Below are positions 33,162 to 63,491 of a stretch of DNA of 64,000 bases, piece by piece; the first letter of the stretch is position 1, and each line of letters opens with the position of its first letter. The notes beneath the pieces were generated by a model. That model had not been told where the DNA came from. It ran no database searches and worked only from the letters and a program-made list of their open reading frames with translations. The translations under genes and the position numbers were made by a program. Location: positions 558,001-622,000 of the forward strand of contig NZ_CP098514.1 in NCBI RefSeq assembly GCF_023703775.1, given 5' to 3'. This stretch comes from Haloplanus sp. GDY1. GTDB taxonomy: Archaea; Halobacteriota; Halobacteria; Halobacteriales; Haloferacaceae.

Positions 33162-34106
33162 CTAGTCCGCCTCGATGGTCAGGGTCCCGGTGTCGGTCAC
33201 GTCGCCGTTCACGCCGACGGTGACGGTGTAGTCGCCCTCCCCGGGGTTCTCGACGTCCCCGTACTCGACGACGAGCGTGTCGCCGCCGTCGAGGCCGTGG
33301 TTCCCCGACAGTTCGATCCTGAGCGTGTTGCCGCCGCCGGAGACGATCACGCCGTCACCGGGCGGGCAGCACTCCACGTCGCTCGTCGCGTCGACCTCGA
33401 TGCTGCCGTCGCGGTCCTCGTCGATGCCGACCGTCACGACGTCGGCCCGTTCGTCCACACCGCTCGCGTCTGCCGACCCGCTCGGATACCTGACGACGAC
33501 GCTGTTCAGGGAGTTGCCGGCGGTGTTCGAGTTCGGGGCGACGGTGTATCTCACCACGTGCGACGTGATCCCGTTCGGGTCGTCCTCGCGCGCCTGAACG
33601 AGTCGGCCGCTCTCGTCCGGGTCGTCTTCGGGGTCCTCCGTCCCCGGTCCGTCGGACTTCTCGCAGGCTATCGTTCGGCTGGCGTTCGTCGACACCGAGA
33701 ACCCCTCTCCCTCGATGTCGACGTCGAGTTCGAGCGTGTGTGCGGATCCGTTCGTCTCCCGTGGCTGAAACGTGATCGGCGCACCGGGATCGACGGTTCC
33801 GACCTCGACGGTGAACGACTCCTCGTCGTCGTACCCCCGGGTTTCGATGTCCCCGCCGACGGCATCGACCTCGACCGTCCCGCCCGTGACCGCGCCCGCG
33901 AACCTGTTGTACAGCAGCACGCTCTCGCCTCCGGTACACCTGATCTCGCCGCCCGGAATGCTGAGGAACGCGTTCCCGTCGTCGGCGACGGCAACGTTCA
34001 CGCTCCGGTCGGCCGTCACCGAACTGTATCCCCCGACACCGAGGGCCATGCTCGCCGCTGTACACAGGGCGACCACCGCCACGATGCGCCGAGTTCGTCG
34101 GTTCAT
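33162..34106 (-). CDS. Secreted TasA/camelysin-like surface protein A
   Basis: A 314-aa protein with a signal peptide (residues about 1-25) followed by 'GGYSSVTADRSVNVAV', close to the mature N-terminus motif of the two TasA-like proteins on the other side of the promoter region. The body is beta-rich and acidic, with cysteines in pairs (ECCPPG). The start overlaps the stop of the HTH regulator by 4 bp, so it is co-transcribed with it. I infer an extracellular fibre or matrix role from the signal-peptide type and neighbours; this is not demonstrated. Confidence 0.7.
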   Translation of the reverse strand: MNRRTRRIVAVVALCTAASMALGVGGYSSVTADRSVNVAVADDGNAFLSIPGGEIRCTGGESVLLYNRFAGAVTGGTVEVDAVGGDIETRGYDDEESFTVEVGTVDPGAPITFQPRETNGSAHTLELDVDIEGEGFSVSTNASRTIACEKSDGPGTEDPEDDPDESGRLVQAREDDPNGITSHVVRYTVAPNSNTAGNSLNSVVVRYPSGSADASGVDERADVVTVGIDEDRDGSIEVDATSDVECCPPGDGVIVSGGGNTLRIELSGNHGLDGGDTLVVEYGDVENPGEGDYTVTVGVNGDVTDTGTLTIEAD

Positions 34107-34636
34107 TCGATTTCCGGTGGTGCGTCGTCGGTTCCCAAGCGCATCTTACGGGTGTAGTAGGTGTGGACCAGCGCCAGTGCGGCGATGGCAGTGATCGTGA
34201 AGACCGCACAGCCGGCGTCGGTCAGTCCCGCCAGAATCGGCAGGTCGAGCGCGTGGCCCAGCGTGACGGTGGCCGCCAGCCCGCCGACGCCGAGGTAGTA
34301 GAGGCTCCAGGGGACGTCGTGGCCCTCCACGACCTCCAGGTAGACGTCGACGTCCGCGGCGTCGTCAGTAAGCGTCACCTCGCCCGCGCGACGGTCGAAG
34401 TCGACCAGGTTCAGATCCTCCATCTTCGGCAGGTGGAACTGCTGGAGCGAGGTGTAGACGTTCTTGCGCGCGTCGGAGCCCACCGACGCGACGTCGATGC
34501 CGTTCTCCCAGGCGGCGACGTGTTCCGCGAGCGTCCCCAGCGCCGCCCGCGCCCCGTTCCCGCGCAGGTAGTGGATGACGAACCGGCGCCGTCGGTTGCT
34601 CAACACCTCGTACACGTCGTCTCGTGCTAAACTCAT
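34103..34636 (-). CDS. HTH regulator with C-terminal membrane helices (DUF7344-like)
   Basis: A 177-aa protein. Residues 1-110 form a winged-helix domain ('DDVYEVLSNRRRRFVIHYLR' ... 'LHLPKMEDLNLV'-like stretch). It is followed by two hydrophobic helices at about 122-140 and 145-165 and a short basic tail. Membrane-anchored HTH proteins of this type often regulate adjacent surface-protein genes in haloarchaea. It is the first gene of a leftward operon with protein A and divergent from the TasA-like gene. Confidence 0.78.
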   Translation of the reverse strand: MSLARDDVYEVLSNRRRRFVIHYLRGNGARAALGTLAEHVAAWENGIDVASVGSDARKNVYTSLQQFHLPKMEDLNLVDFDRRAGEVTLTDDAADVDVYLEVVEGHDVPWSLYYLGVGGLAATVTLGHALDLPILAGLTDAGCAVFTITAIAALALVHTYYTRKMRLGTDDAPPEIE

Positions 34637-34669
34637 GTCGTTCGTATCCCCCCAACTGACCGCGTTGGC

Positions 34670-34890
34670 TACGTGGCACCCTCACTGCAGTATCCCACAT
34701 AAGTAACCGCCGCCGTCGGGGTTTTCAGGACCCGCAAGCCCGTTCTCAACCGCGTCCTGAACCGTCTCGGCCATCGTTTGAAACCGGTAAATCACCCTGT
34801 TGAACCGGTTCTACCGACCGTTGTACCTCGTTCAATCGGCTCACTACAAACGGGGTGGGGGTATAGGGACGTGATGTGCTCCGGACGGGG
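34670..34890. promoter_or_regulatory. Divergent promoter region of the surface-protein cluster with repeated AACCGGT-like boxes
   Basis: Between the HTH regulator and the first TasA-like gene lie several related boxes: AACCGGT at 34782-34788, the palindrome GAACCGGTTC at 34802-34811 and weaker CTGAACCG copies nearby. A TATAG box at 34862-34866 is placed for a start near 34890. The repeats are candidates for the HTH regulator's operator. Confidence 0.5.
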
Positions 34891-34902
34891 CACTGACAAC
34901 CA

Positions 34903-35547
34903 ATGCAACGGCGAAAGTTCATCGCAGGTGTGGGATCGCTGGCCGCTGGCGCGGCGGCCGTGACTGGTACTGGTGCGTTCACGAGCGTGCAGGCGGATCG
35001 AAGTCTGACGATCAACACTCGGTACAACTCCGACGCGCTTCTCGGGCTGGGTGCCGAAGACAGCGAGAACGGGGACGAGTACGTGGTCAACCCCGGTGCC
35101 TCGGGTAGCAACGGGATCGCGATCGACCTCGGTGATGCGGACGGAGACAGCGTCGGGGACGGCAGTGGCAATCCGTACGGCGTCAACGGCAACGCGCTCA
35201 CGATCATTCGCGACCTCATCTACGTCAAAAACCAGGGGAGCCAGGAGGTCTACGTCCACTTCGAGGGACTCCCCAACAACGTTCGGGTGTTCCACGACGA
35301 CTCCTCCTTCCCGAAGGGGGAGGACGGTGGCGCTTACACGGGCAACCTGAGCAACCCCGGTACTGGCCGGTTCCAGCCGGACGACCCGGACGCGAGCGAG
35401 TCGAACAACTACTTCAAACTCCCCGATCTGTCGCCCGGTGACACGCTCGAGAACATCGGCCTGCTGATCGACACCACCAGCGGAAACGTCCAGTTCAGCG
35501 GGGACATCACGATCGTCGCCGAGACCCTCGAGGAAGCCGAGAGCTGA
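34903..35547 (+). CDS. Secreted TasA/camelysin-like surface protein B
   Basis: A 214-aa protein with the signal sequence 'RRKFIAGVGSLAAGAAAV' and then TGTGAFTSVQADRSLTIN. The position of GAFTS matches that of SipW-processed camelysin/TasA proteins. The mature part is beta-rich with an Asp/Gly-rich segment (DADGDSVGDGSGN) that could bind calcium or salt. It starts the rightward group B-C-430 aa-SipW-DUF5305. A role as a fibre subunit is inferred from these features and the neighbouring signal peptidase. Confidence 0.72.
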   Translation: MQRRKFIAGVGSLAAGAAAVTGTGAFTSVQADRSLTINTRYNSDALLGLGAEDSENGDEYVVNPGASGSNGIAIDLGDADGDSVGDGSGNPYGVNGNALTIIRDLIYVKNQGSQEVYVHFEGLPNNVRVFHDDSSFPKGEDGGAYTGNLSNPGTGRFQPDDPDASESNNYFKLPDLSPGDTLENIGLLIDTTSGNVQFSGDITIVAETLEEAES

Positions 35548-35593
35548 TCGAGCTCGAGCGGCGTGCTACACGGGCGCCGTCGAGTTCCCTACC

Positions 35594-36157
35594 ATGAAGC
35601 GAAGAGATTACCTCGTCGGTCTGACCGGAATCGCGGCCGGTACCAGCTTCACGCTCGGTACTGGCGCGTTCACCAGCACGACCGCACACCGGAGCCTCGA
35701 AGTGTCGACGGCGGCGGACAGCGAAGCGATGCTGAGACTCACACAGCGGGGCGCCGGTCGTCGCAGTACCGTGAACGGAGGTGACCCGCAGCAAGTGGAG
35801 TTCGAGTTCCCCGGCAGGGACGCGAGCGACGACCTCGGACTGGGGGTCGACTCGGTGTACGAGTTCGACATCGACGCTGGCGAGGCTGGTCGAAGCTCAC
35901 CGATAGCGGGGCTCCTCCGCATCGAGAACCGTGGGAACGAACCCGTCGAGGTCTACTCGACCCACGAGACCGCGTCGGATCTGGAGATCGAGCTGTACGA
36001 CGTGACCGACGACGACGAGACGGCGCTCAGGGACGACCCGGCCGTGCTCGATATCGGCGAGTTCGTCGACGTCGGATTCCGAATCCGCACGCACGGGGCG
36101 GGGATCGGAACGTTCGACGAGACGCTGACGATCGTCGCCGATCCAGTGAGCGACTGA
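35594..36157 (+). CDS. Secreted TasA/camelysin-like surface protein C
   Basis: A 187-aa paralogue of protein B: signal 'RRDYLVGLTGIAAGTSFTL' followed by GTGAFTSTTAHRSLEVST. The mature domain is beta-rich, with 'LLRIENRGNEPVEVY' and an Asp-rich turn, and no cysteines. It lies 46 bp after protein B, probably on the same transcript. Repeated use of the GAFTS...RS start suggests a conserved N-terminal strand. Confidence 0.72.
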   Translation: MKRRDYLVGLTGIAAGTSFTLGTGAFTSTTAHRSLEVSTAADSEAMLRLTQRGAGRRSTVNGGDPQQVEFEFPGRDASDDLGLGVDSVYEFDIDAGEAGRSSPIAGLLRIENRGNEPVEVYSTHETASDLEIELYDVTDDDETALRDDPAVLDIGEFVDVGFRIRTHGAGIGTFDETLTIVADPVSD

Positions 36158-36242
36158 CACGCGGGGTGACGGACCCCCGAAACACCCGTCGTCGATCCGT
36201 GGGAGGAGACGACGCGACCTCGGTTGACTACCGCCCGGACGA

Positions 36243-37535
36243 ATGAGACGAGACGCAGCCCTGCTCGTGGTACTCGCGCTTTTCGGAGCGGCGACCCTCT
36301 CCACGAGTGCGGCACCGCTGACCGCGACCGACGACGTGACCGACGACGTCCACCTCTCGCCGGCGAGCGACTACGCCTACCTCGACCGGGAGGGTGAACT
36401 CGCCATCGACGTGTCGCCGTCCAACCCGGACATCGACGGCGGCGGCGTCAACGGGGACGGCCGGACGGACCTCGGCGGCGTGTTCCGCGTCCGGTACACG
36501 GGAGACGTCCCCGCCCGGATTTGGGCGACCGCCGACTCCGCGGCGGTGACGTTCGTCGTCGACGGTCGCCCCGTGCAGTCGCGGACCGCCGCCGTCGTCC
36601 TCGGCACGAACGAGTCCGCAACGGTCGGCCTCGTCGTCGACACGACCGCTGCCGACGGGCCGATCGACGACTTCGAGGTTCACGCCCGAGTCGCTGAGTC
36701 GGCAGGAGGTGGCGAGCGGGTGCCGAAGACGGCCGGCACCGACGGGGACGTTACGTCAGTTCGCATCGAGCGACCGAGGCCGGATCGGCGCACGGTACTG
36801 ATCCCGGCTGCGTCCACCGGCGAAAGCGTCAGCGTGCGGTTCGACGGGCTGATCCTCGACGAGGCGGGCGGCGGGGCGGTCACGCTCGACGCGCTCCGCG
36901 TCGACCGGGCGGGGGCGGAGCCGATCAGCCTCGCCCTCGAGACGGGGGAGTCGGTACCGACGGTTGCCACACCGGACGGGCGCCCCGTGACCGTTCTGGG
37001 CTCGGTGCGGGTCACGCCCACGCGCGGAGCCACCTCCGTCGGCCCCGCAACCCTCCGGTTCCGCATCGACGACCGGTATCTCGACGGGGTGGGCGTCGAC
37101 GGCGGGAAACTGGTCGTCCACAGGTACAGCGGGACCGAATCGAGTCGCGTCGCCCTCGGAGAACTGCACGAGGGTCGGAGCGTGACGGTCGAGACTCCTG
37201 GGTTCTCGACGTTCGTGGTGGCGGTCGAACCCGTCCCGGAGGGCGGCCCCGTCGAGGGACGGCGAGGGAACTCGAACGACCGCCGGAACGCGGTCGACGG
37301 CGCGGACGAGGGTGGCCTGCCGGCCGAGGCGTCGGAAACGACGCGGGTCGCCGACGACCCGGACGAGACGGCGGGAGTCGCCGGCCGGAGTCACGAGCGA
37401 GCGGCCGGGACGCCGACGCAGTCGAACGGGGTCCTGGCGGGACTGGACGTGGCGGGGGACGGTCCGTGGGTGACTGTCGCCGGCTTCGTCCTGGGGCTGC
37501 TAGTGGTCGGATGGAGGGTCGCCCGTGGAGCGTAG
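36243..37535 (+). CDS. Exported acidic protein with C-terminal membrane anchor
   Basis: A 430-aa protein with a cleavable-looking signal (MRRDAALLVVLALFGAATLS), several beta-sandwich-like segments, a Pro/Asp/Glu-rich linker near residues 340-400, and a single hydrophobic helix close to the C-terminus ('WVTVAGFVLGLLVVGW'). It is likely anchored outside the cell. The adjacent TasA-like genes and signal peptidase suggest an accessory or anchor subunit. I do not recognise the family. Confidence 0.68.
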   Translation: MRRDAALLVVLALFGAATLSTSAAPLTATDDVTDDVHLSPASDYAYLDREGELAIDVSPSNPDIDGGGVNGDGRTDLGGVFRVRYTGDVPARIWATADSAAVTFVVDGRPVQSRTAAVVLGTNESATVGLVVDTTAADGPIDDFEVHARVAESAGGGERVPKTAGTDGDVTSVRIERPRPDRRTVLIPAASTGESVSVRFDGLILDEAGGGAVTLDALRVDRAGAEPISLALETGESVPTVATPDGRPVTVLGSVRVTPTRGATSVGPATLRFRIDDRYLDGVGVDGGKLVVHRYSGTESSRVALGELHEGRSVTVETPGFSTFVVAVEPVPEGGPVEGRRGNSNDRRNAVDGADEGGLPAEASETTRVADDPDETAGVAGRSHERAAGTPTQSNGVLAGLDVAGDGPWVTVAGFVLGLLVVGWRVARGA

Positions 37536-37589
37536 GACACGCGGGGTGTGGGCGTCCCACCATTTTTGTCGGACTGACACGTCCTCCCG

Positions 37590-38750
37590 ATGACCGCCAC
37601 AATGTCGCCCCGACGTATCCTCTCGCTGGCCGTGGAGCTGCTGGTCGTCGTCCTGATCGTCTCCCTTCTGGCGGGCCAGGTGCTCGGGCAGCCGGTGTTG
37701 CTGAGTTACGTCGAGACGGGGAGCATGTCGCCGACGATGGAGCCCGGGGACGGGTTCGTGGCCGTCCCATCGTCGCTCACCGGACCGCCCGAACGAGGGG
37801 ACGTGATCGTCTTCCGTGCCGAACAGATCCAGGGGGGTGGTCTCACGACCCACCGGGTCGTCCGGGAGACGGACCGTGGGTACATCACGCGCGGGGACGG
37901 GAATCCGTTCACCGATCAGGACGGCGACGAGCCGCCGGTGAAAGACGCCCAGATCGTCGCCGAGGCGCTTCAGGTCGGTGGGACCGTCCTCGTGATCCCG
38001 AACCTCGGCACCGCCGTGGTCGGGATTCAGGACGTCGTCGGTGGCGTCCAGCGATGGCTCGCGATCGCGTTCGGTATGCAGTCGTTGCTCGGGTCACAGG
38101 GGCTGATCTATCTCGCGTTCGGCGTCACTGCGATCGCGTACGTACTCGACCTCCTGATCGGGAGCGACCGTACCGGCCGCGAGCGATCACGAAGCCGAGA
38201 CGACGGCCTCTCGTCGCGGCTCCTGCTCGCCGGGATGGCGTTGCTCGTCGTCTCGACGGCGACGGCGGCGATGGTCGTCCCCGCTGGCCCCCAGCAGTTC
38301 GCCATCATCAGCGCCGAATTCGAGTCAGACCGTCCGACGACCATCCCACAGGGGGAGTCGTCGTCGCTCGATTACACCGTCCCCAACACCGGTCTCGTCC
38401 CCGTCTACGTGTACCTGGAGCCCGGAAGCGACGGCGTCGAAATCGATCCCCGGCGGGTGTACGTGGCTGGGCGGGCGAGCGCCGAGGCGACGATGACGAT
38501 CCACGCGCCCCCGGAAACCGGATACTACCGGCGATACATGGTCGAACATCGGTATCTCGCTCTCCTTCCGGGGAACGTCGTCGACGCCCTGTACCGACTC
38601 CATCCGTGGACGCCGATCGTCGCCATCGACCTCCTCCTCGGCGGATCGGTGTACCTCCTCGGCAGGGTACTCGTCGGCTCCGGCCGGATCAGATCGCGGT
38701 CCCGAGAGGGACCGTCGACACTGCACCGACTGGCGAACCGACTGATCTGA
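37590..38750 (+). CDS. SipW-like signal peptidase I with extra C-terminal domain
   Basis: A 386-aa enzyme. The catalytic serine is S45 in 'VETGSMSPTMEPGD'. The second catalytic residue is a histidine (H88 in TTHRVV) rather than lysine, as in ER-type and SipW peptidases, and box D is 'GYITRGDGNPFTDQ'. After the peptidase domain come further membrane helices and a beta domain (about residues 215-330) not found in ordinary SipW. It should process the neighbouring TasA-like proteins. Start may be ATG 37590 or ATG 37602. Confidence 0.85.
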   Translation: MTATMSPRRILSLAVELLVVVLIVSLLAGQVLGQPVLLSYVETGSMSPTMEPGDGFVAVPSSLTGPPERGDVIVFRAEQIQGGGLTTHRVVRETDRGYITRGDGNPFTDQDGDEPPVKDAQIVAEALQVGGTVLVIPNLGTAVVGIQDVVGGVQRWLAIAFGMQSLLGSQGLIYLAFGVTAIAYVLDLLIGSDRTGRERSRSRDDGLSSRLLLAGMALLVVSTATAAMVVPAGPQQFAIISAEFESDRPTTIPQGESSSLDYTVPNTGLVPVYVYLEPGSDGVEIDPRRVYVAGRASAEATMTIHAPPETGYYRRYMVEHRYLALLPGNVVDALYRLHPWTPIVAIDLLLGGSVYLLGRVLVGSGRIRSRSREGPSTLHRLANRLI

Positions 38751-38809
38751 TCCCGGCGGAGGTGTCGGATACTCAAGTTTCTTAACGTCCCGTCAGAAAC
38801 GGGACGGCC

Positions 38810-39991
38810 ATGTCGTCGGGGGGAGACCGAGACCGATTGGAGTTGCGCGGCCGCGTGATACTCGACGAGTGGTTCTGGGTCGTCGTGCTGGTGGCCATCG
38901 TACTGACCGCTGCCGGTGGATACGCGACGTACACGGCCTACGAGGCCCCCGGAACCATCTCGGAGGAGCGACAGGTCGCGAGCTGGGAGGGTAACGGTAG
39001 CTACACTACTGCGGCGACGGTCACCGAACGGAACCCCCTGTTCCCCGTCGGGACGGAACTCACGGATCGTCCGGCGTACTTCCGGACGGTGAGTCCGCGG
39101 TTGGACGGGACGTTCGCCTTCGAGTACGAGGCGAGCGACGGCGGCAGTCTCGACGTCTCCGTCCAGCAGACGCTCGTCCTCCGTTCGATCGAGGAACGCG
39201 AGGACAGGACCATCGAGTACTGGCGCATCGAATCGCCGCTCAACGGTACCGAGACGACTGGCGTCGGTCCGGGCGACGCCGTAACGGTGGCGTTCTCGCG
39301 GGACATCAACCGGTCGGCGGCTCGCTTGGCGGACGTTAGCGATCGGTTCGGTCCAGCGTCGGGGTCGACGCAGATTCTCGTCGTCGCCAGGGTGGCTATC
39401 GAGGGGGAGGTCAACGGTCGGACCGTCGACCGAAACGGGACGTACACGATGCCCATCGGCGTCGGGGGAACGGTCTACGCTCCAGGCGCCGTCAGAGGCG
39501 AGGCCTTCTCCGGTTCGACGACGGAGCTGGTCACCCGCGAGCGAACGTACGGACCCCTCTACCGGATCGGCGGGCCGGTGGCACTCCTGTTCGGGGTCGT
39601 CGGTAGCGTCGGCCTCGGCTACGGACGGTACGACGACCGCTTCGCCGTCTCCGGGGCCGAACGGACGGCCCTCGACTTCGAATCGACCCGCGAGGAGTTC
39701 GACGACTGGATCACGACCGCCAGCCTCCCCCAGGCCGTCCTCGACCGCCCGCGCGTCGACGTCGACTCGCTGGAGGGCCTCGTCGACACCGCCATCGACG
39801 TGGAGGCGCGGGTCTTCGAGACGCCCCGTGGCGACGCGTTCTACGTGCCCCACGAGGACCTCCTGTACGTCTACGAGCCGCCGACGGCGGGCCGCGACGC
39901 GACGCTCGGGGGCGAGGCGGCGACGACCGGTGACGGGGAGTCGGTCGACGGGACGGCGGACGAGGACGCGGACGGGACCGCCGACTCCTGA
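38810..39991 (+). CDS. DUF5305-type membrane protein
   Basis: A 393-aa protein with an N-terminal helix at about residues 20-42 and a second helix at about 248-268. They enclose an exported beta-rich domain of about 200 residues; a cytoplasmic tail of about 120 residues ends in an acidic low-complexity stretch. This shape matches the DUF5305 proteins that accompany signal peptidases in haloarchaeal surface clusters. Function is unknown; a platform or assembly role is possible. Confidence 0.75.
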   Translation: MSSGGDRDRLELRGRVILDEWFWVVVLVAIVLTAAGGYATYTAYEAPGTISEERQVASWEGNGSYTTAATVTERNPLFPVGTELTDRPAYFRTVSPRLDGTFAFEYEASDGGSLDVSVQQTLVLRSIEEREDRTIEYWRIESPLNGTETTGVGPGDAVTVAFSRDINRSAARLADVSDRFGPASGSTQILVVARVAIEGEVNGRTVDRNGTYTMPIGVGGTVYAPGAVRGEAFSGSTTELVTRERTYGPLYRIGGPVALLFGVVGSVGLGYGRYDDRFAVSGAERTALDFESTREEFDDWITTASLPQAVLDRPRVDVDSLEGLVDTAIDVEARVFETPRGDAFYVPHEDLLYVYEPPTAGRDATLGGEAATTGDGESVDGTADEDADGTADS

Positions 39992-40034: not shown

Positions 40035-41858
40035 ATGTCCGACCTCGGCGACTTCACCGAAGTCACGGCCGACGACGGGACGGGCCGGGACGACGACCCG
40101 CCGCCGTCCGATCACGACGGCGACGACACCGACGGCGGAGACGGGACGGCCGCGGACGACTTCGACGCGTACGACGTCTCGCCCGCCGGCAGCGATCGGG
40201 GACTGGGATCCATCTCCGTCTCGCAGGGGCTCCGCGTCGCCGAGGACGGCGACGACACGACGCTCAAGGCGTTCGTCACCAGCGACAACCGCGAGTCGGT
40301 TCGGCTGGGCAAGTACGTCCTCGTTCCCTACCCCGACGACGAGACGCTGTTCTGTCGGATCACCGCCCTGGAGTACGCCCAGGAGTTCGAGGCCGACGAC
40401 GCGACCGAGATCCACGCCCGCCGGGCGATGCGCCGCGACGACTTCGCGGAGCGGGACTACAAGTTCGTCGCGACGCTCGAGCCGGTGGCGGTCCTGTTCT
40501 CGACGGACGGGGAGCTGAAACGCCGGATGACCGATCGCGTGCCCAAACCTGGGGCCGTCGTCGGCGAAGCCACGGACGCGGCGGAGATCAAGACGGGGCT
40601 GGCCATCCCCGCCGAGGGCGTCTTCCTCGGACATCTCTCGGTCGGCGGCGAGACGGTGCGGACGGCCGCCTCGCCCCCGACCATCGACTACCGCCTGAAG
40701 GACGACTACGCCGACGGCGACCCGCTGGTCTTCCGCCACACGCTCGTCGCGGGGGGGACGGGGTCGGGCAAGACCCACGCCTCGAAGAACGTCCTCCGGC
40801 AGTATCTCGACGCGTCGTATCCGATGGGCGACGGGCGCGAGGCACCGACGGCGGTGGTCCAGTTCGACCCGCAGGACGAGTACGCCCAGATGCACGACGA
40901 CAACCCCGCGATGGACGACGAGTTCGCCCGCCGACTGGAGCGGGAGGGCATCGCTCACGGCGGCCACGACGACACCGTCGCGCTCGTCCCCGAGGTGGAG
41001 GGCGCGTCCTACGGCGGCGGCGCCCACCGCGCCGAGCAGGTTCCCTTCACCGTCCCCTTCCGGATGGTCCGGTCGCGGCCGTGGCTGGTCGCCGGCGCGC
41101 GCCTGAACGACAACCAGTACCAGGCGCTCGACTACCTGCTCGACCGGTTCTTCCGCGACTACGGCACCGAGGGCACCTACGCCGAGTTCAAGTCCTACCT
41201 CGACGACCCGGCGCTCCGGGAGGAACTCGACGAGTCGGGCCGGGTCCACGAGGCGACGTTCGACGCCGTGCGGCGGCGAGCGCTCGGGAGTGCCTTCTCC
41301 CGGGTGTTCGACCGGGACGCCAGGCCGGTGACGGACCTCGTTCACGAACTCGTTCGTCCCGGCGGGCTGACCGTCGTTCCCACGTACCACGTCAACGACT
41401 CGCGGGCGACGGAACTGGTCGTCCTCGCCGTCGCGAGCCTGCTGGTCGACGAGAAGCTGTCGAACGACCCCGACTACGAGCGGATCAAGGAGACGCCGCT
41501 GATCCTCGGGATGGACGAGGCGCACAACTTCCTGACCGACGCCGAGAGCGTGCAGGCCCGGAAGGTCATCGGGAAGTTCACCGAGGCGGCAAAGCAGGGC
41601 CGGAAGGAGCGTCTCGGCCTCTTTCTCATCACGCAGGACCCGCAGGACATCGCGGAGTCGGTGTTCAAGCAGGTGAACACGAAACTCGTCCTCAACCTGG
41701 GCGACGAGGACGCCATCAACAGCGTCAACATCCCGCCGACGCTGGAGGACAAGGTGCCCTACATGGAGAAAGGGCAGATGGTCGTCTACTCGCCGGACAA
41801 CTCCGAACCGGTCGAACTGACGGGCCTGTCGACCTGCGTGACGCGACACGGGGAGTGA
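40035..41858 (+). CDS. herA: HerA-type DNA translocase/helicase
   Basis: A 607-aa hexameric ATPase of the FtsK/HerA class. Walker A is GGTGSGKTH and Walker B is LILGMDEAHNF, followed by the arginine-finger region 'TKLVLNLGDEDAI'. An N-terminal HAS-barrel-like domain ('LGKYVLVPYPDDETLFCRI') is preceded by an acidic extension of about 60 residues. It works with NurA in DNA-end resection. ATG 40035 lies 43 bp after the DUF5305 stop. Confidence 0.88.
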   Translation: MSDLGDFTEVTADDGTGRDDDPPPSDHDGDDTDGGDGTAADDFDAYDVSPAGSDRGLGSISVSQGLRVAEDGDDTTLKAFVTSDNRESVRLGKYVLVPYPDDETLFCRITALEYAQEFEADDATEIHARRAMRRDDFAERDYKFVATLEPVAVLFSTDGELKRRMTDRVPKPGAVVGEATDAAEIKTGLAIPAEGVFLGHLSVGGETVRTAASPPTIDYRLKDDYADGDPLVFRHTLVAGGTGSGKTHASKNVLRQYLDASYPMGDGREAPTAVVQFDPQDEYAQMHDDNPAMDDEFARRLEREGIAHGGHDDTVALVPEVEGASYGGGAHRAEQVPFTVPFRMVRSRPWLVAGARLNDNQYQALDYLLDRFFRDYGTEGTYAEFKSYLDDPALREELDESGRVHEATFDAVRRRALGSAFSRVFDRDARPVTDLVHELVRPGGLTVVPTYHVNDSRATELVVLAVASLLVDEKLSNDPDYERIKETPLILGMDEAHNFLTDAESVQARKVIGKFTEAAKQGRKERLGLFLITQDPQDIAESVFKQVNTKLVLNLGDEDAINSVNIPPTLEDKVPYMEKGQMVVYSPDNSEPVELTGLSTCVTRHGE

Positions 41859-55887: not shown

Positions 55888-56751
55888 ATGGCAACGCCCG
55901 TCGGCGCCACGACGCTCGCGTACGCCCTGGTCGGCGTCGCCCTCGGGACGTGCAGCGGACTGACGCCCGGCCTGCACGCCAACAACTTCGCGCTGCTGCT
56001 CGCCTCCGTCGTCCCCGTCCTGCCGGGCCCGCCGCTCGCGCTCGGGGCCGCCATGCTCGCGGCCGGCGTCGTCCACACCTTCCTCGACGTGGTGCCGGCG
56101 CTCGCCCTCGGCGTCCCGGATCCCGCGACGGCGGCGGTGACGCTGCCGGGTCACCGACTCGTCCTCGACGGGCGCGGGCGGGAGGCGCTCCGGCTCTCGG
56201 CGCTCGGGAGCGGTCTCGCCGTCGTCGTCGCCCTCCCCGTGGCCGTCCCGTTGACCCGCGCCGTCGAACTCGCCTACCCGACGCTCCGCCGACACCTCCC
56301 GGTCCTCCTGACCGTCGTGGGCGTCGTCCTCGTCGCCACCGAACCGACCTGGCGGCGCCGGGTCGCCGCCCTGGCGACGCTCGCCGTCGCCGCGGGCCTC
56401 GGGTGGTTCGTCCTCGACGTCGATCCGACCGGCCCCGTGGCCGTCGGCGGCGTCCTCGCACCCCTCTTTGCCGGCCTGTTCGGGGCGCCGGTGTTGATCG
56501 AGGCGCTGGACGGCGAGGGCGTCCCGCCGCAGTCGGACCCGACGGTGACGCTCGACCGGCGGACGGTCCTCGGCACGGCGGGCGCCGGCGCCGGCGCGGG
56601 GGCGCTCGTGGGCTACCTGCCCGGCGTCTCCGCTGCCGTCGGGACGGTGCTCGTCCTCCCTGCGGTGCCCGGAAAGTCGGGCGCGCGCGGCTTCCTCGTC
56701 GCCTCCAGCGGCGCCAACACGGCCAACACGGTCTTCGGTATTTCACTGTAG
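55888..56751 (+). pseudogene. TctA-like (DUF112) permease, 5' part, interrupted by an integrative element
   Basis: The first 283 codons of a tripartite-tricarboxylate-transporter-like permease, with glycine-rich membrane segments such as 'TCSGLTPGLHANNFALLLAS' and 'LPGVSAAVGTVLVLPAVPG'. After NTVF at the attachment site the frame enters the element and ends with GISL and TAG. The remaining part lies at 63507-63862. Joining the two at the 15-bp repeat gives exactly 401 codons plus a stop, in frame, so the gene should be restored on excision. In the integrated state the protein lacks its last 118 residues or so. Confidence 0.88.
56723..56737 (+). repeat. Left attachment repeat (attL core)
   Basis: CCAACACGGTCTTCG occurs here and again at 63492-63506, flanking the AT-rich element. 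GC content drops sharply right after the left copy and rises right at the right copy. The 15 bp are part of the permease coding sequence (codons for AN-T-V-F). Confidence 0.85.
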
Positions 56752-56756
56752 GTACA
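56744..56756 (+). repeat. Left copy of the element-end repeat CACTGTAGGTACA
   Basis: A 13-bp direct repeat shared by both inner ends of the element (right copy 63470-63482). It lies 6 bp inside the left core and 9 bp inside the right core, so it may be an arm-type binding site for the recombinase. Confidence 0.65.
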
Positions 56757-56889
56757 ACGTTAACAGTCTAATCGACAGACGACGGTGAAATTCGCCAAAA
56801 TATCTATTAGACGCAGGCGTATGCGCGAGGAATAATCTAATATCTACTGGTTATGATTATTTCTACTGGTTATGATGATACCACCGAAT

Positions 56890-56953
56890 AGTGACCTGAG
56901 ACGGGGGTAGTGACTTGGGTAGATCGTAGGTCACTCTACTTCCTCAGGTCACT
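56890..56953. repeat. Nested AGTGACCT/AGGTCACT inverted repeats
   Basis: AGTGACCTGAG (56890-56900) and CTCAGGTCACT (56943-56953) are perfect inverted repeats. Inside them lie AGTGACTT (56909-56916) and AGGTCACT (56928-56935). ACGTCACTGACGT at 56990-57002 is a further palindrome. The motif recurs at the other structured sites in the element and probably binds an element-encoded protein. The remainder of the 56752-57562 gap has no convincing gene. Confidence 0.75.
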
Positions 56954-57370
56954 GGTTGCTTGGAAAATGACTGATCGGCTCGAATAGGTACGTCACTGAC
57001 GTTTATTCCAGACGGATAGTTCTGTAAGTATCTGATTACGCGGTATTCGTCTGTGGTACAACTGGGTTATCAGTACCAGACTCGAAGATAACCGTTCTTA
57101 TTTGGGAACAAAGACTAATCAATTATCTTACATATTTAGTCTACTGTTCGAGTATCCTATTCTGTAGGTAGAAGGCCTGTCACCCTCAAAATTAGCCTCA
57201 TAGGGAAACATGTCAGATATTTGGGGGTGGAGGAACAGAGTGCGAGAGAGACGAACCTGCATGACAGACTCATACCTCACCGTCAAAATACTGAGCCTGA
57301 GAAAGAGTCTAATCGGTGATTCGAGATTTATTTATTATAGAAAATGAGATGGGAAATCAGTCTCGTCTAT

Positions 57371-57506
57371 GTACCAGATTGCTCTGAGACGTATCAGATT
57401 GGTTTCTAAGCCGTTTGAGTTGATTGAAAGTAGGTAGGGTCGTATCTAACTCAAGCCGCTTAGAAACGCACTGAGGGGCTTAGAATAGAAACGCGTTCAG
57501 TGACCT
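57371..57506. repeat. 136-bp structured repeat, left copy
   Basis: Matches 61237-61372 over 136 bp without gaps at about 110 positions. It contains CAGATTG twice, the partial inverted repeat TTTGAGTT/AACTCAA and two CTTAGAA boxes, and ends CGTTCAGTGACCT. Just beyond it, TAGGTCACTGAACG (57547-57560) completes a 14-bp perfect inverted repeat with 57494-57507; a smaller hairpin (ACACGAAC/GTTCGTGT) lies between. It sits directly after the last gene of the leftward operon. Confidence 0.85.
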
Positions 57507-57562
57507 AACAATAGCAACACGAACAACGGGTTCGTGTCGTCTGTAGTAGGTCACTGAACGGC

Positions 57563-57874
57563 CTACGAATGTTCGTATTCATATCGGTGAATCTCGTTCT
57601 CCATTCGAGTTGAATAACGATCTTTAGGACAGGAGTATTCTGATACGAAATGGTCCATACTGGTAGCAACTTCATAGAGGCAGATAGCTCCCTGAGTCTC
57701 ATACTGCTGAATAGCCTGTTGAACGTTCAAGGGCGTCACGCCGACACCAAGCCCCTCTTCGACTAAGCCAGCCATATACTGAATCACCTCTTTGTCACAG
57801 AGAGATTGACGGTCGAACACGTAACTACCGTCATCTAATTTCTCTTTCACCGAGCGTTGTTTCAGTTTAGACAT
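57563..57874 (-). CDS. Element protein of unknown function (103 aa)
   Basis: A 103-aa protein starting MSKLKQRSVKEKLDDGSYVF. A middle part 'QYMAGLVEEGLGVGVTPLNV' and a C-terminal region with two cysteines follow. I do not recognise it. ATG 57874 was chosen because the upstream open frame overlaps the next gene. It is the last gene of the leftward operon, 7 bp after its neighbour's stop, and the 136-bp repeat follows immediately. Confidence 0.72.
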   Translation of the reverse strand: MSKLKQRSVKEKLDDGSYVFDRQSLCDKEVIQYMAGLVEEGLGVGVTPLNVQQAIQQYETQGAICLYEVATSMDHFVSEYSCPKDRYSTRMENEIHRYEYEHS

Positions 57875-57881
57875 AACGGTG

Positions 57882-58640
57882 TTAGTTATAAGGATTATTC
57901 TCTGAACCACCACCGCCGTTATCCCAAGGCGTGGAAGCCGTCTTTCCAGAACCAGCGACGTGGGTATTGTGAGGGCCTTTACGGTCCATCGGTGAGGTAT
58001 AGAGGTTACTATTACTACCAGAGTCGTCGTTAACAGACCCTTCGAGTAAGCCACATTCGACAGACGCCTTACGAATCTCAGACGAACTAACGTCTTCCTC
58101 AAGCTGGTCGGAAAGATACGTAGCTGTTTCGTCAATAGAAAGACCGTCCGTCGCAAGGAGTTGACAGAGAACACGACTGTCTTTCCACGGGGGGTCGGAT
58201 AGGAAACTGTAAGGGATAGACTCGCCCGACGGGAGGACAAGCGACTCCGACTGTGTAGTTTCCTGTTCGCTCGAAGTATCTTCGATTGTAACCCCATGCA
58301 AATCGACGGCCTTGCGAATCAGACTCTCGTCTGTATTCAACTCATTCGAGGCGTCTTCAATCGAGTTGATTAGGTCACTATCGAACAGTTCTGTTAGGAA
58401 GTCACTGGCATCGGGAAGCAACACGTCTTCATTCCTAATATAGTGAGAGTATAGATGCCTAACATCGTCGTTCAGACTAACGTCATTCGGCTCAGATGGG
58501 TGTTCGACTATGGGAAGACCGTTGTTGTACCCGAGACGCTTAGGTTCGGACAAGGCGTCTTCCACGTACTCAGGTCGGTCTTCAGCAGGCTCACCGTTAC
58601 GATTACGGACTTTAGCGATGGATTTGGCAGAGAGATTCAT
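57882..58640 (-). CDS. Element protein with two HTH-like segments (252 aa)
   Basis: A 252-aa acidic protein. Two similar helical segments, 'SNELNTDESLIRKAVDLHGV' and 'QLEEDVSSSEIRKASVECGL', look like duplicated helix-turn-helix units. The last 45 residues are a low-complexity Gly/Ser/Asn tail. A DNA- or protein-binding role is possible but unproven. Its start overlaps the stop of the 93-aa gene. Confidence 0.7.
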   Translation of the reverse strand: MNLSAKSIAKVRNRNGEPAEDRPEYVEDALSEPKRLGYNNGLPIVEHPSEPNDVSLNDDVRHLYSHYIRNEDVLLPDASDFLTELFDSDLINSIEDASNELNTDESLIRKAVDLHGVTIEDTSSEQETTQSESLVLPSGESIPYSFLSDPPWKDSRVLCQLLATDGLSIDETATYLSDQLEEDVSSSEIRKASVECGLLEGSVNDDSGSNSNLYTSPMDRKGPHNTHVAGSGKTASTPWDNGGGGSENNPYN

Positions 58641-58921
58641 CAGCTATCCCCCTCGTAGACGTTCGTCGGGACGAGATAACGCACTACAGGATTGCTCATG
58701 CCATTACCAGAAACTACCTCCACAATTTCAGCCGTCTCGGAAACGTCGATTTCATCCCCGTGAGTGAAACGCCCCTCAAGGTAGACGAACTCGGCTTCAG
58801 GTCCACTGGTAACTGCTTTCAGAATCCGATTTCCCCGATTAACGTCAATCGAGCTTGCTTCAATTTCCTCCCCCATTTCGATTGTACTTCCCGCCGAGAC
58901 CCGTTTATTCACACAGAACAT
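58640..58921 (-). CDS. Element small beta-rich protein (93 aa)
   Basis: A 93-aa protein with alternating hydrophobic strands ('SSIDVNRGNRILKAVTSG', 'AEIVEVVSGNGMSNPVVRYL') and no membrane helix or catalytic motif. It follows a 173-bp gap that contains TAATAATATTCCGA (58951-58964), a motif shared with the 40-bp inverted repeat, and an AT-rich promoter. It could start its own transcript. Confidence 0.7.
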   Translation of the reverse strand: MFCVNKRVSAGSTIEMGEEIEASSIDVNRGNRILKAVTSGPEAEFVYLEGRFTHGDEIDVSETAEIVEVVSGNGMSNPVVRYLVPTNVYEGDS

Positions 58922-59094
58922 CTTCTACTATAGTATAATCATACGCCGAGTCGGAATATTATTACATTCTAATGCGGCGTGGTTTGGACATGCCCGTCGC
59001 ACAGTCCGTACACCCACTTCTAACCAAGTGGGGTTTCAGTAGAATCAGTACATAGGTCTCCTATGTGGAAATCAGTCTTAACTGACTGATTTTC

Positions 59095-60096
59095 TCAATA
59101 AATAGGAGTCATGTTCCGCTCTTCTAATCGCTTGTAACCGTATTCGACTGCTGAACTAATTTCATCGTTACTCATTTCAAAACTGTCAGTGACTTCTAAG
59201 TCTGATTCAAGTTGCTCCATATCAGGCTCATCAATCTCAGGATCATCCGATTCTCGAACCTCTAACTCACTAACGTCAAAATCGTTCATCTGACGCAACT
59301 CGTCAATCAGGCTACTGAGCCGTGACAGGTCGTCCGTATCGACATTCAGTAACGCACCACAGTAGCCTACGAGACGGCCATAGAAACCGCTATGCCACCG
59401 ATTCCAGACATTTACGTAGTTAGACGGTTCACTGAGAATGGTGTCTCTAATCTCTTTTCTGACGTTCTGAGATACATCTAACACGTCTATCAGACTATCG
59501 ACGTATGCTCTTTGCCCACGCTTGAGTTCCTTATTATTCCGAGTCGCAGTTAGTTTGAACTTGTAGACAGGAACCTTCCAGTCAGTAGAGTGAAGTTCTG
59601 GAGCGTCTTCAAGGATTTGAGCATATGACGGTTTAGTACGATAGACGTTAATCGCAGACCAGTCCACCCCACGAAGGTCTTCGTAACTGTCTATCTCAGT
59701 GCTAACTCCCTTCCCAAATTGGTACTTCCACAGACGATTGTATTTAGACTCGTCGTCAGCCTCCTTCGCATAGAGGGTTGTTCTCATCGAATCGTCATCC
59801 GTACCACCAAACTCGAATGTATCATCACCGTCTCGCCACTCAGTAGTCTCATTATGCTCTTCGCTTACAGAAATTTCAGTAGCATGGGGTTCAGATTGTT
59901 CAGACTCTTTCTCGCGTTCCCACCTCTCTCGAACAACTTGGTGAAACCCTTTGGGTAGAGATCGATATTCTACTGCGATGCTAACAGGCTCATCGTCTTC
60001 CTCACCGACGTTTAGATAATCACCATCTATAGGGTGGTCGATGTTACCGCCCTGTCGATTACACCATAGCTCACTCAAAGTGACCACCTCCATCAC
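59095..60096 (-). CDS. Element protein of unknown function (333 aa)
   Basis: The largest cargo protein, 333 aa, acidic. A central region around residues 130-260 ('KYQFGKGVSTEIDSYEDLRG', 'YKFKLTATRNNKELKRGQRAYV') is basic and helical and may contact nucleic acid; the C-terminal 60 residues are very acidic. It could be a replication or partition-type protein by position, but no conserved motif supports that. It overlaps the upstream HTH gene by 26 bp. Confidence 0.68.
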   Translation of the reverse strand: MMEVVTLSELWCNRQGGNIDHPIDGDYLNVGEEDDEPVSIAVEYRSLPKGFHQVVRERWEREKESEQSEPHATEISVSEEHNETTEWRDGDDTFEFGGTDDDSMRTTLYAKEADDESKYNRLWKYQFGKGVSTEIDSYEDLRGVDWSAINVYRTKPSYAQILEDAPELHSTDWKVPVYKFKLTATRNNKELKRGQRAYVDSLIDVLDVSQNVRKEIRDTILSEPSNYVNVWNRWHSGFYGRLVGYCGALLNVDTDDLSRLSSLIDELRQMNDFDVSELEVRESDDPEIDEPDMEQLESDLEVTDSFEMSNDEISSAVEYGYKRLEERNMTPIY

Positions 60097-60283
60097 GGCG
60101 GGGAAGACGGTGCTTCTTCATGTATTTCAGAACAGTCTGTGTGGTAACACCGAAGCCCTCAGCTATTTCACGCATGGATTTCCGCTGGATGTAATAGCAG
60201 ACGATTAACACGTCCCTATCACGGTAAGCAGTAGGGTACTGTTCAGCAATATCCTCGATAGAAACTGATTGGACATCTAACAT
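60071..60283 (-). CDS. Element HTH protein (70 aa)
   Basis: A 70-aa homeodomain-like protein. 'SMREIAEGFGVTTQTVLKYM' is a clear helix-turn-helix followed by the basic 'KKHRLPRRDGG'. Such short proteins are common in haloarchaeal plasmids and viruses. It probably binds DNA within the element. AT-rich DNA upstream (60284-60333) may hold a promoter. Confidence 0.78.
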   Translation of the reverse strand: MLDVQSVSIEDIAEQYPTAYRDRDVLIVCYYIQRKSMREIAEGFGVTTQTVLKYMKKHRLPRRDGGGHFE

Positions 60284-60333
60284 TTTTATTTATTGTAAAC
60301 TTTTATTTGGAAATTGGTTTAGAAACTACAATT

Positions 60334-60480
60334 CTAACTATGGTAGTGGCCTGCGAGGTACGCAATTAGTTCGCCATACGTCTTGTCGTCAGGGTTCTGA
60401 TAGATTTCAGACTTCATTTCATCCAACACCTCTTTACACTCAGATGAAACTCTAAGATGCTTGTCATAGCGACGTGACAT
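60334..60480 (-). CDS. Ribbon-helix-helix-like microprotein (48 aa)
   Basis: A 48-aa protein, MSRRYDKHLRVSSECKEVLD at the start. A beta strand (KHLRVS) followed by two helices fits the ribbon-helix-helix fold of plasmid repressors and antitoxins. It overlaps the stop of the upstream microprotein by one base (TAATG), so the two are translated together. It is too short to be obvious in ordinary gene finding. Confidence 0.68.
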   Translation of the reverse strand: MSRRYDKHLRVSSECKEVLDEMKSEIYQNPDDKTYGELIAYLAGHYHS

Positions 60481-60623
60481 TAGAGTTCACCCTCCTCGAA
60501 CAGTTCCATGAGCTTCGAGACGACTTCACCACGGGGGACAGAACTTGTTCCGTAAAGTGTCTCTTTCAGTTCGTCCAGTCGTTCAATCTCATCTTCGGAA
60601 AGTCGGATTTGTTTTCCTCTCAT
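60480..60623 (-). CDS. Ribbon-helix-helix microprotein (47 aa)
   Basis: A 47-aa protein, MRGKQIRLSEDEIERLDELK at the start, with the strand KQIRLS and two helices. It is a typical DNA-binding RHH domain. An alternative ATG lies at 60629. It heads the cargo operon and is preceded by an 18-bp palindrome, so it may repress its own promoter. Confidence 0.75.
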   Translation of the reverse strand: MRGKQIRLSEDEIERLDELKETLYGTSSVPRGEVVSKLMELFEEGEL

Positions 60624-60646
60624 CTGCATCTAATTGGTAATGTTAA

Positions 60647-60664
60647 TGTCAACGACCGTTGACA
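60647..60664 (-). promoter_or_regulatory. Palindromic operator before the cargo operon
   Basis: TGTCAACG-AC-CGTTGACA is a perfect inverted repeat of 8-bp arms, located 24-41 bp upstream of the first RHH gene and downstream of an AT-rich TATA region (about 60680-60692). RHH dimers usually bind such sites. Confidence 0.65.
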
Positions 60665-60787
60665 CAGGGGATTAGCAAGGAATAGATATATTCTGCAAAT
60701 ATGCTGGTAAACCGCGAGTATAGTAATCTATCTGTTCAGATACCTTAGTCTCGGTAAACCGACTCCTTAACAAATTACTGAGTTACT

Positions 60788-60880
60788 ATGACGCTTTGTG
60801 AAGTCACTACGTCTGTTACAACCAGTATTATCGTCGGCAGTTTTCTGATTGGACTGTATTTGCTACTAACAGCAAAATAA
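60788..60880 (+). CDS. Possible element membrane microprotein (30 aa)
   Basis: A rightward frame MTLCEVTTSVTTS followed by the helix 'IIVGSFLIGLYLLLTAK'. It is divergent from the cargo operon. Two copies of GGTAAACCG (60706-60714 and 60753-60761) lie in front of it. A single membrane helix in a 30-aa protein cannot be excluded as chance. Confidence 0.4.
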   Translation: MTLCEVTTSVTTSIIVGSFLIGLYLLLTAK

Positions 60881-61142
60881 GACTCTCTAAGGCACATTTG
60901 GGGTGTGCGTGTAGCCTTTGAAAATTTGCTGATCGGGATAGTAACAGTCTATGTCAATAGTTACCATGCTCTTAGAACGACAAAGAAGTGGCCTGTTAGA
61001 CCCCCCTCCCTCTTTCAATCATCTGCTACACAGCAAGAGTACGAAGCAAGCGAAATAAATAATAACAAACTACTACGCAAGAGGTTCTATTCTATGAACG
61101 TATTTCTCAAAGGGTCTTCGTCTACAAACCTTCTACTAATAT

Positions 61143-61639
61143 CTAATAATATTCCGAACCACCTGAGACAGACAAGTCTCTCTATACGTATCTGCCTCAG
61201 ACGTATCTCAGAGACGTATATCTCACTCACGCCCATGTGCCAGATTGCTCCGTATCGTATCAGATTGCTCTGTAAGCCGTTTGAGTGATTTGGAAGTGGT
61301 AGGCATCCTATTGAACTGAAGCCTCTTAGAAACGCACTGAGGGCCTTAGAATAGATTCGCGTTCAGTGACCTGTGAAAGAAAACAGAATCACGTATGATT
61401 GTGTCGTTATCTACAGGTCACTATTCGAGTAACTGCCTGTAGGGTGTGATTGAACGCTTTGACCCTTGGGGTAAGACGAACAGAAATATTGACCCTCGTT
61501 AGTAGCAACGTGAGGTATCTAAGACTGTTGTTTTCGACGGGTAGGTAGTTGAGAACCGTGACTGAGAGAGAAAAGTATCTGAGACAATTACCTGTGTTGG
61601 AGAGACTTGTCTGTCTCAGAGTTTTCGGAATATTATTAG
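61143..61639. repeat. 40-bp inverted repeat enclosing 417 bp of structured DNA
   Basis: Arms 61143-61182 and 61600-61639 match at 36 of 40 positions as inverted repeats, each containing TAATAATATTCCGA and GAGACAGACAAGTCTC-type blocks. Between them lies the right 136-bp repeat. No gene fits here. The layout suggests a replication origin, a recombination site or a small non-autonomous element. The larger gap 60881-61950 holds nothing else convincing except palindromic patches near 61840-61919. Confidence 0.8.
61237..61372. repeat. 136-bp structured repeat, right copy
   Basis: Ungapped match of about 110 of 136 positions to 57371-57506. It ends GTTCAGTGACCT, and ACAGGTCACT at 61413-61422 forms a 10-bp perfect inverted repeat with 61365-61374. 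The spacing between the 8-bp AGTGACCT/AGGTCACT boxes is 42 bp here and 41 bp in the left copy. Confidence 0.85.
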
Positions 61640-61950
61640 TGTTATAATGAAGACTTCTGAAATGAAGAAAAGGTTTGAACGAAAGCCCTCAAGGACAGCA
61701 TAGAAGTATTAATTAACAGGCGCAGCGGGCGCATAGAAGCAGAAGGAAATTGGAATGTGGGGGCGGTCTAATAGGTCACTTCTTTGTCGATTTAGAAGTA
61801 TGCTAATGAGTAACAAGGACTGCTACCATACCCCCCCGTGGTTAGTAGCATGGAAATGGATGTGATTACATTCCTCCGCGATTTCCACCGAAATGTAACC
61901 AAATATGGTAACACTAACCTTGTGTTGTAGGAAAATAACGTTAGATAGAC

Positions 61951-62946
61951 TCAGATATGCGGTCCATGTCTCCGAACCGATTTCTGTAAATCCGTATCGG
62001 AATATTTCAGATAATTCTCTTTCGTCGTCTCAATATCATCATGGCCAAGTAGATCGGCAAGCAGTGAAATGTCACCACCGTCGTTAATGAAGTGGACACC
62101 GAACGACTTTCTCAAGGTATGTGCGCCGACTCTCTTGACCTTCTGACCACCCCTATTCTCATAGACGGTTTCCTGTAAACCAGCGTTCTCTGCGGCTGTA
62201 GTAACCACGTCAGTAACAGTCTGTTCGTCCATTCTCACTTGCCTTCGAGTAGGGAACAAGTATTCAGACTCTTCGGCGTAGAACACTTCATTTCTATCAG
62301 CTTCGAGCCACATGGATAGCAGAGAATCCAGTGTTCCATGATACCAAACTGTTCGGGATTCATCTGTCTTCTTTCCGTAGATAGCTATCTTGCGGCTATC
62401 TCTGTCGATGTGAGATATTTTGATACGGACTAATTCACTGCGACGGATACCAGTTTGATAGAGCAACCGAACAATCAGTTCGTTTCTAACTGTCGGCGCA
62501 GGGACGTGGTTTACCAGCCGTCTAACTTCATGAATCTCAAGGGGCTTCTCACCTCCCTCTACCTCTTTCTTAGAATCACTGAACATACCGTCAATTCGCT
62601 CGGGGGTAGCGTGTTCAGTAGGATCGTCACCTACGTCCATCTGAGGGAAACCCCTACGTCCATTCTCACCGAATTTCTCAATCGTACTGTAGAGATCGGA
62701 GATAGCAGCATGAGCAACACGGATAGACGATGGAGCATATCCCTGTTCATTCAGCATATGTTGGTAGAAGTCTTCCACGTGACCACTGTGACAGTCTTCT
62801 ATCCCTACGTCAGTCTCTTCCTCAAGATACTGAACGAAACGACGGATATGCCTACGATACTCCCTTGCAGTATCCGTATTCCCAGCAGCCTTGTAGCTAT
62901 GATGAGCATCAATAGCCTGTTCGACTACAGAAACCTGTTCAGTCAT
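61951..62946 (-). CDS. Tyrosine recombinase (integrase) of the element
   Basis: A 331-aa XerC/D-type integrase. The N-terminal SAM-like core-binding domain covers about residues 1-120. Catalytic residues are R168 (TGIRRSEL), K192 or K193, H276 and R279 (HTLRKSF), H302 (LLGHDD) and the nucleophile Y312 (KENYLKY). All are present, so it should be active. It lies about 0.55 kb inside the right end, with an RHH gene between it and the junction. It most likely integrates and excises the element at the 15-bp core. Confidence 0.93.
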   Translation of the reverse strand: MTEQVSVVEQAIDAHHSYKAAGNTDTAREYRRHIRRFVQYLEEETDVGIEDCHSGHVEDFYQHMLNEQGYAPSSIRVAHAAISDLYSTIEKFGENGRRGFPQMDVGDDPTEHATPERIDGMFSDSKKEVEGGEKPLEIHEVRRLVNHVPAPTVRNELIVRLLYQTGIRRSELVRIKISHIDRDSRKIAIYGKKTDESRTVWYHGTLDSLLSMWLEADRNEVFYAEESEYLFPTRRQVRMDEQTVTDVVTTAAENAGLQETVYENRGGQKVKRVGAHTLRKSFGVHFINDGGDISLLADLLGHDDIETTKENYLKYSDTDLQKSVRRHGPHI

Positions 62947-62947
62947 A

Positions 62948-63433
62948 CTATCCTTCCCTCCAATAACGCGGTTCGTCTTCGTCGGGGATCATATTCACCG
63001 CGTTAGATTGACTAATCTGTGCCAAGGCTATGGAAGCCTCTTGCTTACTCACATTCACCTGTTCAGCAATCTCTTGGGGTGTTACAGCCGTATGAAGTGA
63101 GGTAGGTAGCTCACTGTAGACGGACGTGACAGTAGCGTCTGAGACGGCTGTGTTAGCCATAACAGTAGACTCAACTGATTCCACTATCTCAGTCAAACCG
63201 TCTATCTTGCCGTCGAGACGTGTTAGTAACGACTCTATATCGCCTAGTGAATCTCTATTCCCCGACGTAGTTTCAGCCGAACCAGTTCCGTAGGCATCAC
63301 CCAACTCCCGTGAGACAGAAAGTCGAATCAGATGGGAAAGTGAGTCGTATTCATCTGAGTCGTCTACTGCTGATTCCCATTTCTGTTTCTGAGTCTCATC
63401 TACTCGAAAGGCGATTGTAGGACGTTCACCCAT
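62948..63433 (-). CDS. RHH plus winged-helix protein co-transcribed with the integrase
   Basis: A 161-aa protein. Residues 1-50 (MGERPTIAFRVDETQKQKWE) form a ribbon-helix-helix domain, residues about 65-100 are coiled-coil-like, and the end 'VTPQEIAEQVNVSKQEASIA' is a winged-helix segment. ATG 63433 is preferred because upstream codons belong to the element end. One base separates it from the integrase start. It may regulate the integrase or act as a directionality factor. Confidence 0.8.
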   Translation of the reverse strand: MGERPTIAFRVDETQKQKWESAVDDSDEYDSLSHLIRLSVSRELGDAYGTGSAETTSGNRDSLGDIESLLTRLDGKIDGLTEIVESVESTVMANTAVSDATVTSVYSELPTSLHTAVTPQEIAEQVNVSKQEASIALAQISQSNAVNMIPDEDEPRYWREG

Positions 63434-63469
63434 GCTACTGTCTATTATCTCCCTGTAGTTAGTTGTTTG

Positions 63470-63482: not shown

Positions 63483-63491
63483 GACGAATAC

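Follow-up and report, generated by a model that had tools for sequence, protein, structure and literature searches.

A 64,000-nucleotide stretch of the Haloplanus sp. GDY1 genome (contig NZ_CP098514.1, positions 558,001 to 622,000; hereafter the window) carries a seven-gene cluster that is very probably a Tat-fimbria (tafi) type locus of Haloplanus species, building thin surface fibres (Table 1). The twin-arginine (Tat) fimbriae of haloarchaea were reported by Galeva et al. (iScience 2025, 28:111793), as cited in PMC12687288. Gene calls and Pfam bear out the placement given in a preliminary description made from the DNA letters: besides the three secreted proteins (A, B and C), the cluster encodes a regulator in the membrane, an anchored protein, a peptidase of the Ser/His type and a DUF5305 protein. 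The cluster type is widespread and already known, and the present locus adds a member; the chaperone-like domain of the peptidase, a rhomboid companion gene and the shared head of protein C look less ordinary.

Table 1. Features of the cluster, in window coordinates (aa, amino acids).
Feature	Position	Strand	Description	Basis
Protein C	33162-34106	-	314 aa; TafC-position subunit; Taf-type N-terminal domain and C-terminal head domain	
Head domain of protein C	33171-33608	-	About residues 167-312	Homology to a Haloplanus domain outside the tafi locus
DUF7344 regulator	34103-34636	-	Membrane-anchored; winged helix and transmembrane segments	Pfam PF24035, 4.4e-29
Divergent promoter region, regulator/protein A	34637-34902		11-nucleotide inverted repeat 34724-34734/34751-34761	
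Protein A	34903-35547	+	214 aa; Tat signal RRKF; fimbrial subunit, candidate major pilin	
Protein B	35594-36157	+	187 aa; Tat signal RRDY; second fimbrial subunit (adapter/TafE-like)	
Anchored DUF1102 protein	36243-37535	+	430 aa; N-terminal subunit-like domain, C-terminal transmembrane segment; candidate fibre base	PF06510, 9.5e-6, over cut-off
Signal peptidase	37590-38750	+	386 aa; S26 Ser/His type, Ser45 and His88	Pfam Peptidase_S26, 1e-6; TIGR02228
MSP/PapD-like β-sandwich of the peptidase	38286-38567	+	Residues 233-326, extracytoplasmic, between two transmembrane helices	Predicted fold
DUF5305 membrane protein	38810-39991	+	393 aa; constant partner of the peptidase, candidate assembly platform	PF17231, 3.4e-43

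The genes for protein C and the regulator overlap by 4 bp and diverge from the rest of the cluster. A repeat search of the region between the regulator and protein A returned weak repeats only, among which the inverted repeat of Table 1 is a putative operator. Members of the DUF7344 family are found at most related loci, and DUF5305 adjoins the peptidase in nearly all loci compared. For proteins A, B and C, the Pfam scan gave nothing solid.

The kinship of the secreted proteins is shown by a solved structure. A profile built from 63 A-type proteins and searched against all PDB chains gave one strong match, the "Pilin" 9p0a (E = 3.7e-33), a chain that the structure library assigns to the Natrinema sp. 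J7-2 Tafi pilus. The single sequences reach the same chain, with E-values of 1.2e-7 for protein A (phmmer), 4.5e-5 for protein B and 0.0039 for protein C (residues 1-79). The stretch of the 9p0a pilin occurs with 189/189 residues identical in one of 392 genomes (locus L255), and the layout there is that of the window: one strand carries the pilin, followed by the anchored DUF1102-like protein, the peptidase with its C-terminal domain and DUF5305, and the other strand the regulator and a two-domain protein. Compared with the window, this locus of the solved pilin has one gene more and one small subunit fewer. The additional gene (L255:9969-12683) lies inside the locus, and the N-terminus of its 902-residue product resembles that of an archaeal type IV pilin (GASSIIGILLLFTLVILGAAVVF).

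In a second reference locus (L164), TafA, TafC and TafE are all over cut-off; the regulator, DUF5305 and the peptidase are of the same kinds as in the window, and the anchored protein has diverged. A four-base overlap joins the regulator gene there to that of TafC, as it does the genes of the regulator and protein C in the window. The layout recurs across Halobacteriales, and the peptidase is present in 94 of the 146 genomes sampled, several of which have more than one, so that by this measure about two thirds of the sampled Halobacteriales genomes possess the system. The anchored DUF1102 protein appears to belong to the same group of subunits: the profile of protein A matches it (1.5e-6), and in an iterative profile it joins A and B.

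The three secreted proteins also share their N-terminal start. The preliminary description had noted a common mature start, which is real in all three; its motif as written fits only A and B, since protein C (GGYSSVTADRS) is off by one residue. The corrected pattern G-[AG]-[FY]-[ST]-S-x-x-A-[DH]-R-S occurs three times when the window is translated in six frames, once in each of A, B and C, and never in 200 shuffles. Among the 63 homologues of protein A, the core R3 R4, G11, A25 F26 and R33 is invariant, and the shared start can therefore be taken as genuine. The start, of the GTGAFTS type, follows Tat-type signals (RRKFIAG in A, RRDYLVG in B and a weaker RRTRRIV in C). The signal would be cleaved just before A25-F26. 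A cleavage site with phenylalanine at P2' is given for TasA in PMC10269814, and the invariant A-F pair agrees with it. In 9p0a, 188 of 215 residues are modelled, and the absence of about 27 N-terminal residues is what signal cleavage would be expected to leave.

Several points weigh against assigning the cluster to the tafi system. In NCBIfam, A and B match TafE and TafA, and C matches TafC (best E-values of 9.6e-7 for protein C to TafC and 5.7e-10 for protein B to TafE), with every score far below the curated cut-off: the best that the three proteins reach on these equivalog models is 54 of 155, 31 of 190 and 28 of 410 bits. The structure model of protein A is of middling quality (mean predicted local distance difference test score, pLDDT, of 69), and its Foldseek matches to FimA (2m5g), the Pyrobaculum calidifontis bundling pilus (7ueg), a Sulfolobus thread (7pnb) and 9p0a are weak (E 0.01-0.11). 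Finally, fibre, export and cleavage at this locus are predictions from its genes. As for the family scores, even a close relative of the solved Tafi pilin, 93% identical to it, stays at 55 bits where the TafA model requires 190, and this cut-off thus does not bound the tafi system.

Could the cluster encode surface proteins that do not polymerize? Secreted or S-layer-associated proteins accompanied by a processing peptidase would be compatible with a locus read from its genes, and the heads carried by these proteins are variable (laminin-G-like, β-solenoid-like, pilin-like), which suits many kinds of surface display. However, the subunits are related in sequence to the subunit of a solved pilus and are encoded in the same operon as at the locus of that pilus, so that this explanation is quite unlikely.

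The preliminary description had favoured a SipW-like peptidase with TasA-like proteins, that is, the biofilm fibre system with camelysin-type subunits in the narrow sense. The general plan is indeed alike, with a dedicated Ser/His signal peptidase beside secreted subunits of the donor-strand pilus group, and the fold matches of the protein A model to donor-strand pilins, weak as they are, point the same way. In other archaea, moreover, DUF5305 adjoins the peptidase in loci with a TasA-type signature (GTLAYFSDTETS), and the tafi and SipW-TasA systems therefore look like cousins. The family, however, is wrong, the closest solved relative being 9p0a and not TasA. The SipW model gives the peptidase 27.2 of the 190 bits required, the Pfam scan found no TasA or camelysin family match among the window proteins, and the TasA/camelysin-type start G-T-x-A-[YF]-F-S-D-x-E is not in A, B or C.

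That start is present at other loci. Haloarchaea hold separate loci whose subunits begin in the TasA manner (e.g., GTSAYFSDREHFEGN) and whose peptidases are short or differently built; one lies in the genome of the window itself (L223, G000:C1:1421000-1435000), with peptidase and subunit at G000:C1:1426768-1429151 and a diverged start (SGTAALLSDSARTDARMTAGALDL). Its subunit is TasA-like with a Tat-type signal, its peptidase has no PapD-like domain, and a DUF7344 regulator lies nearby. In the peptidase tree, which has few columns and of which the finer branching is not used, a 99/99 branch splits the tafi from the TasA-type enzymes, and the latter have no C-terminal domain. Membership in SipW-TasA was rejected on the SipW score, the lack of a TasA match or start and the separate peptidase clade, and has very little probability left. 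The tafi system is thereby set apart from the SipW-TasA-type loci that share a genome with it.

A relation to type IV pili or the archaellum, to which the protein C head might point because related genomes have it on a type IV pilin-like protein, can be practically discarded, since A, B and C begin with N-termini of Tat/S26 type that have no class III signal and none of the seven genes is a pilus ATPase or platform.

With the tafi assignment in place, the peptidase deserves a closer look. Its catalytic Ser45 and His88, proposed in the preliminary description, are invariant in 69 homologues, as are Asp103 and Asp109. The TIGR02228 model for archaeal signal peptidase I scores 54.6 bits, over its cut-off, and SEC11A/C are among the PDB matches. 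The structure model (mean pLDDT of 86) predicts a β-sandwich in residues 233-326, with block means of about 91-98, between two transmembrane helices, and, judging from the arginine-rich loop that precedes it, the domain would lie on the outer side of the membrane, as the catalytic part does. Foldseek matches the domain to MSP domains and to the pilus chaperones Caf1M, CupB2, YadV and DraB (E 7e-4 to 1e-2, probability about 1), the TM-score on the target being about 0.5 for MSP domains and 0.22-0.25 for the two-domain chaperones, in both cases for a predicted fold. SipA, a pilus-related signal peptidase homologue, is also among the Foldseek matches of the peptidase. The similarity may be partly generic, because the model of protein A also gave weak matches to PapD-like ASH domains.

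The C-terminal β domain had been described as unusual, a view that the comparison overturns: a domain profile recognizes it in 131 of the 153 peptidases of the fetched loci. Nearly every locus that has Taf or DUF1102 subunits carries it, three such loci lying outside Halobacteria (the exception being L232, with a DUF1102-type subunit), and the profile has no match at any TasA-signature locus. In three genomes of one other genus (g32; loci L006, L007 and L013), the peptidase match contains one internal TGA, from either a pseudogene or a match that overruns the end of the gene.

What might such a domain do on a signal peptidase? The MSP/PapD-like sandwich is the fold of bacterial pilus chaperones. 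The earlier idea that the domain couples processing to assembly is strengthened by this predicted fold, although as a modelled one. The best-conserved part of the domain is its last strand (311-323), in or near which R321, P327 and P339 are invariant, and the suggestion may be made, and only as a suggestion, that this strand is donated to pilus subunits. A bolder proposal, tentative and somewhat unlikely as it stands, is that the peptidase is a fusion of signal peptidase and pilus chaperone, whose PapD-like domain caps the open groove of a subunit as the signal is removed and then hands the subunit to the fibre. If so, one membrane enzyme would do the work of the chaperone, usher and peptidase that are separate in bacteria. 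The idea that maturation and capping of fibre subunits reside on one enzyme is in this way made testable.

Protein C joins a conserved fimbrial start to a variable head. Over roughly the last 145 residues it shares 60-70% amino acid identity with a domain that six other Haloplanus genomes (G516, G519, G323, G520, G521 and G522) encode away from the tafi locus, and the sole copy in the genome of the window is that on protein C. The related head sits after a type IV pilin-like N-terminus in all four proteins read (L266, L267, L268 and L269), and Pfam Pilin_N is over cut-off in both of the two head-bearing proteins scanned. Other proteins at the TafC position carry a laminin-G-like domain (L164), show a sub-cut-off similarity to β-solenoids (L255) or are short (L271 and L274). 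A conserved start with an exchangeable head would fit a tip adhesin, and the head of protein C is a case of a surface domain common to two unrelated pilus types.

These elements can be arranged in a scheme for fibre assembly. Proteins A, B and C would be exported by Tat through their twin-arginine signals, and the membrane-anchored S26 peptidase would remove the signal just before the A-F pair, freeing an N-terminal strand. As in the solved relatives, polymerization would proceed by insertion of the freed strand into the next subunit. Protein A is the likely main subunit of the fibre and protein B an adapter, with protein C as a tip subunit bearing its exchangeable head and the anchored DUF1102 protein presumably forming the fibre base. 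The PapD-like domain of the peptidase and DUF5305 may hold or hand over subunits during assembly, and the DUF7344 membrane regulator probably controls the divergent operons. What the sequences themselves show is that the signals are of the Tat type, that the S26 peptidase has its catalytic residues, that A, B and C are akin to a solved pilin and that the neighbourhood is conserved. In this way, DUF1102, DUF5305, DUF7344 and one type of peptidase are tied to a fibre system with a solved structure.

A further gene accompanies many of the related loci. A rhomboid-type protein is encoded within 4 kb of the peptidase in 54 of the 108 related loci with enough upstream sequence, and such genes lie near the peptidase at, for example, L107:7419-8351, L054:8091-8936 and L170:3934-4812, and at 63 further loci, some of which have an over-cut-off TafA. 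One member passes Pfam Rhomboid, and the members inspected retain a serine motif, G-F-S-G, and a histidine late in the sequence. The rhomboid could act on the anchored DUF1102 protein. Half of the related loci thus have the gene, whereas the window has none, nor was one found in a search of the genome of the window, run without a positive control. The HerA ATPase gene downstream of the cluster (40056-41858) was considered as a member of the system and rejected: although it is also downstream in other Haloplanus genomes, a HerA profile matched nothing at the other loci, so that it is a neighbour. Farther downstream, G+C falls from about 69%, the value of the window up to its last 8 kb, to 43-57% at positions 56001-64000, which suggests an inserted element.

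How does the cluster compare with known systems? The Bacillus SipW-TasA-TapA system, in which TasA assembles by donor-strand exchange (PMC9674648), likewise places a dedicated Ser/His signal peptidase beside secreted fibre subunits, but the window has no TasA-family match, its peptidase belongs to a separate clade and its signals are of the Tat and not the Sec type. The archaeal bundling pili (7ueg) and Sulfolobus threads (7pnb) are built of extracellular pilins of the donor-strand type and resemble the protein A model weakly in structure (Foldseek E 0.03-0.08 only), although neither gave a sequence match in the PDB search. The likeness extends much further in the tafi system of haloarchaea, represented by the Natrinema sp. 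J7-2 pilus, with homologous subunits, Tat-type signals, the same regulator, a two-domain protein at the TafC position, an anchored DUF1102-like protein, a peptidase with C-terminal domain and DUF5305. Differently from that system, the subunits of the window are too diverged for the TafA, TafC and TafE equivalog cut-offs, the head of protein C is neither laminin-G-like, as in a canonical TafC, nor solenoid-like, as in the J7-2-type locus, and the rhomboid gene is missing. Clusters with DUF1102 subunits in non-halophilic archaea (L220, L221 and L222) share the DUF7344-like regulator, the peptidase with the same C-terminal domain and DUF5305; their subunit signals, however, have no RR motif and are thus apparently of the Sec type, and these clusters are perhaps a Sec-dependent ancestral form.

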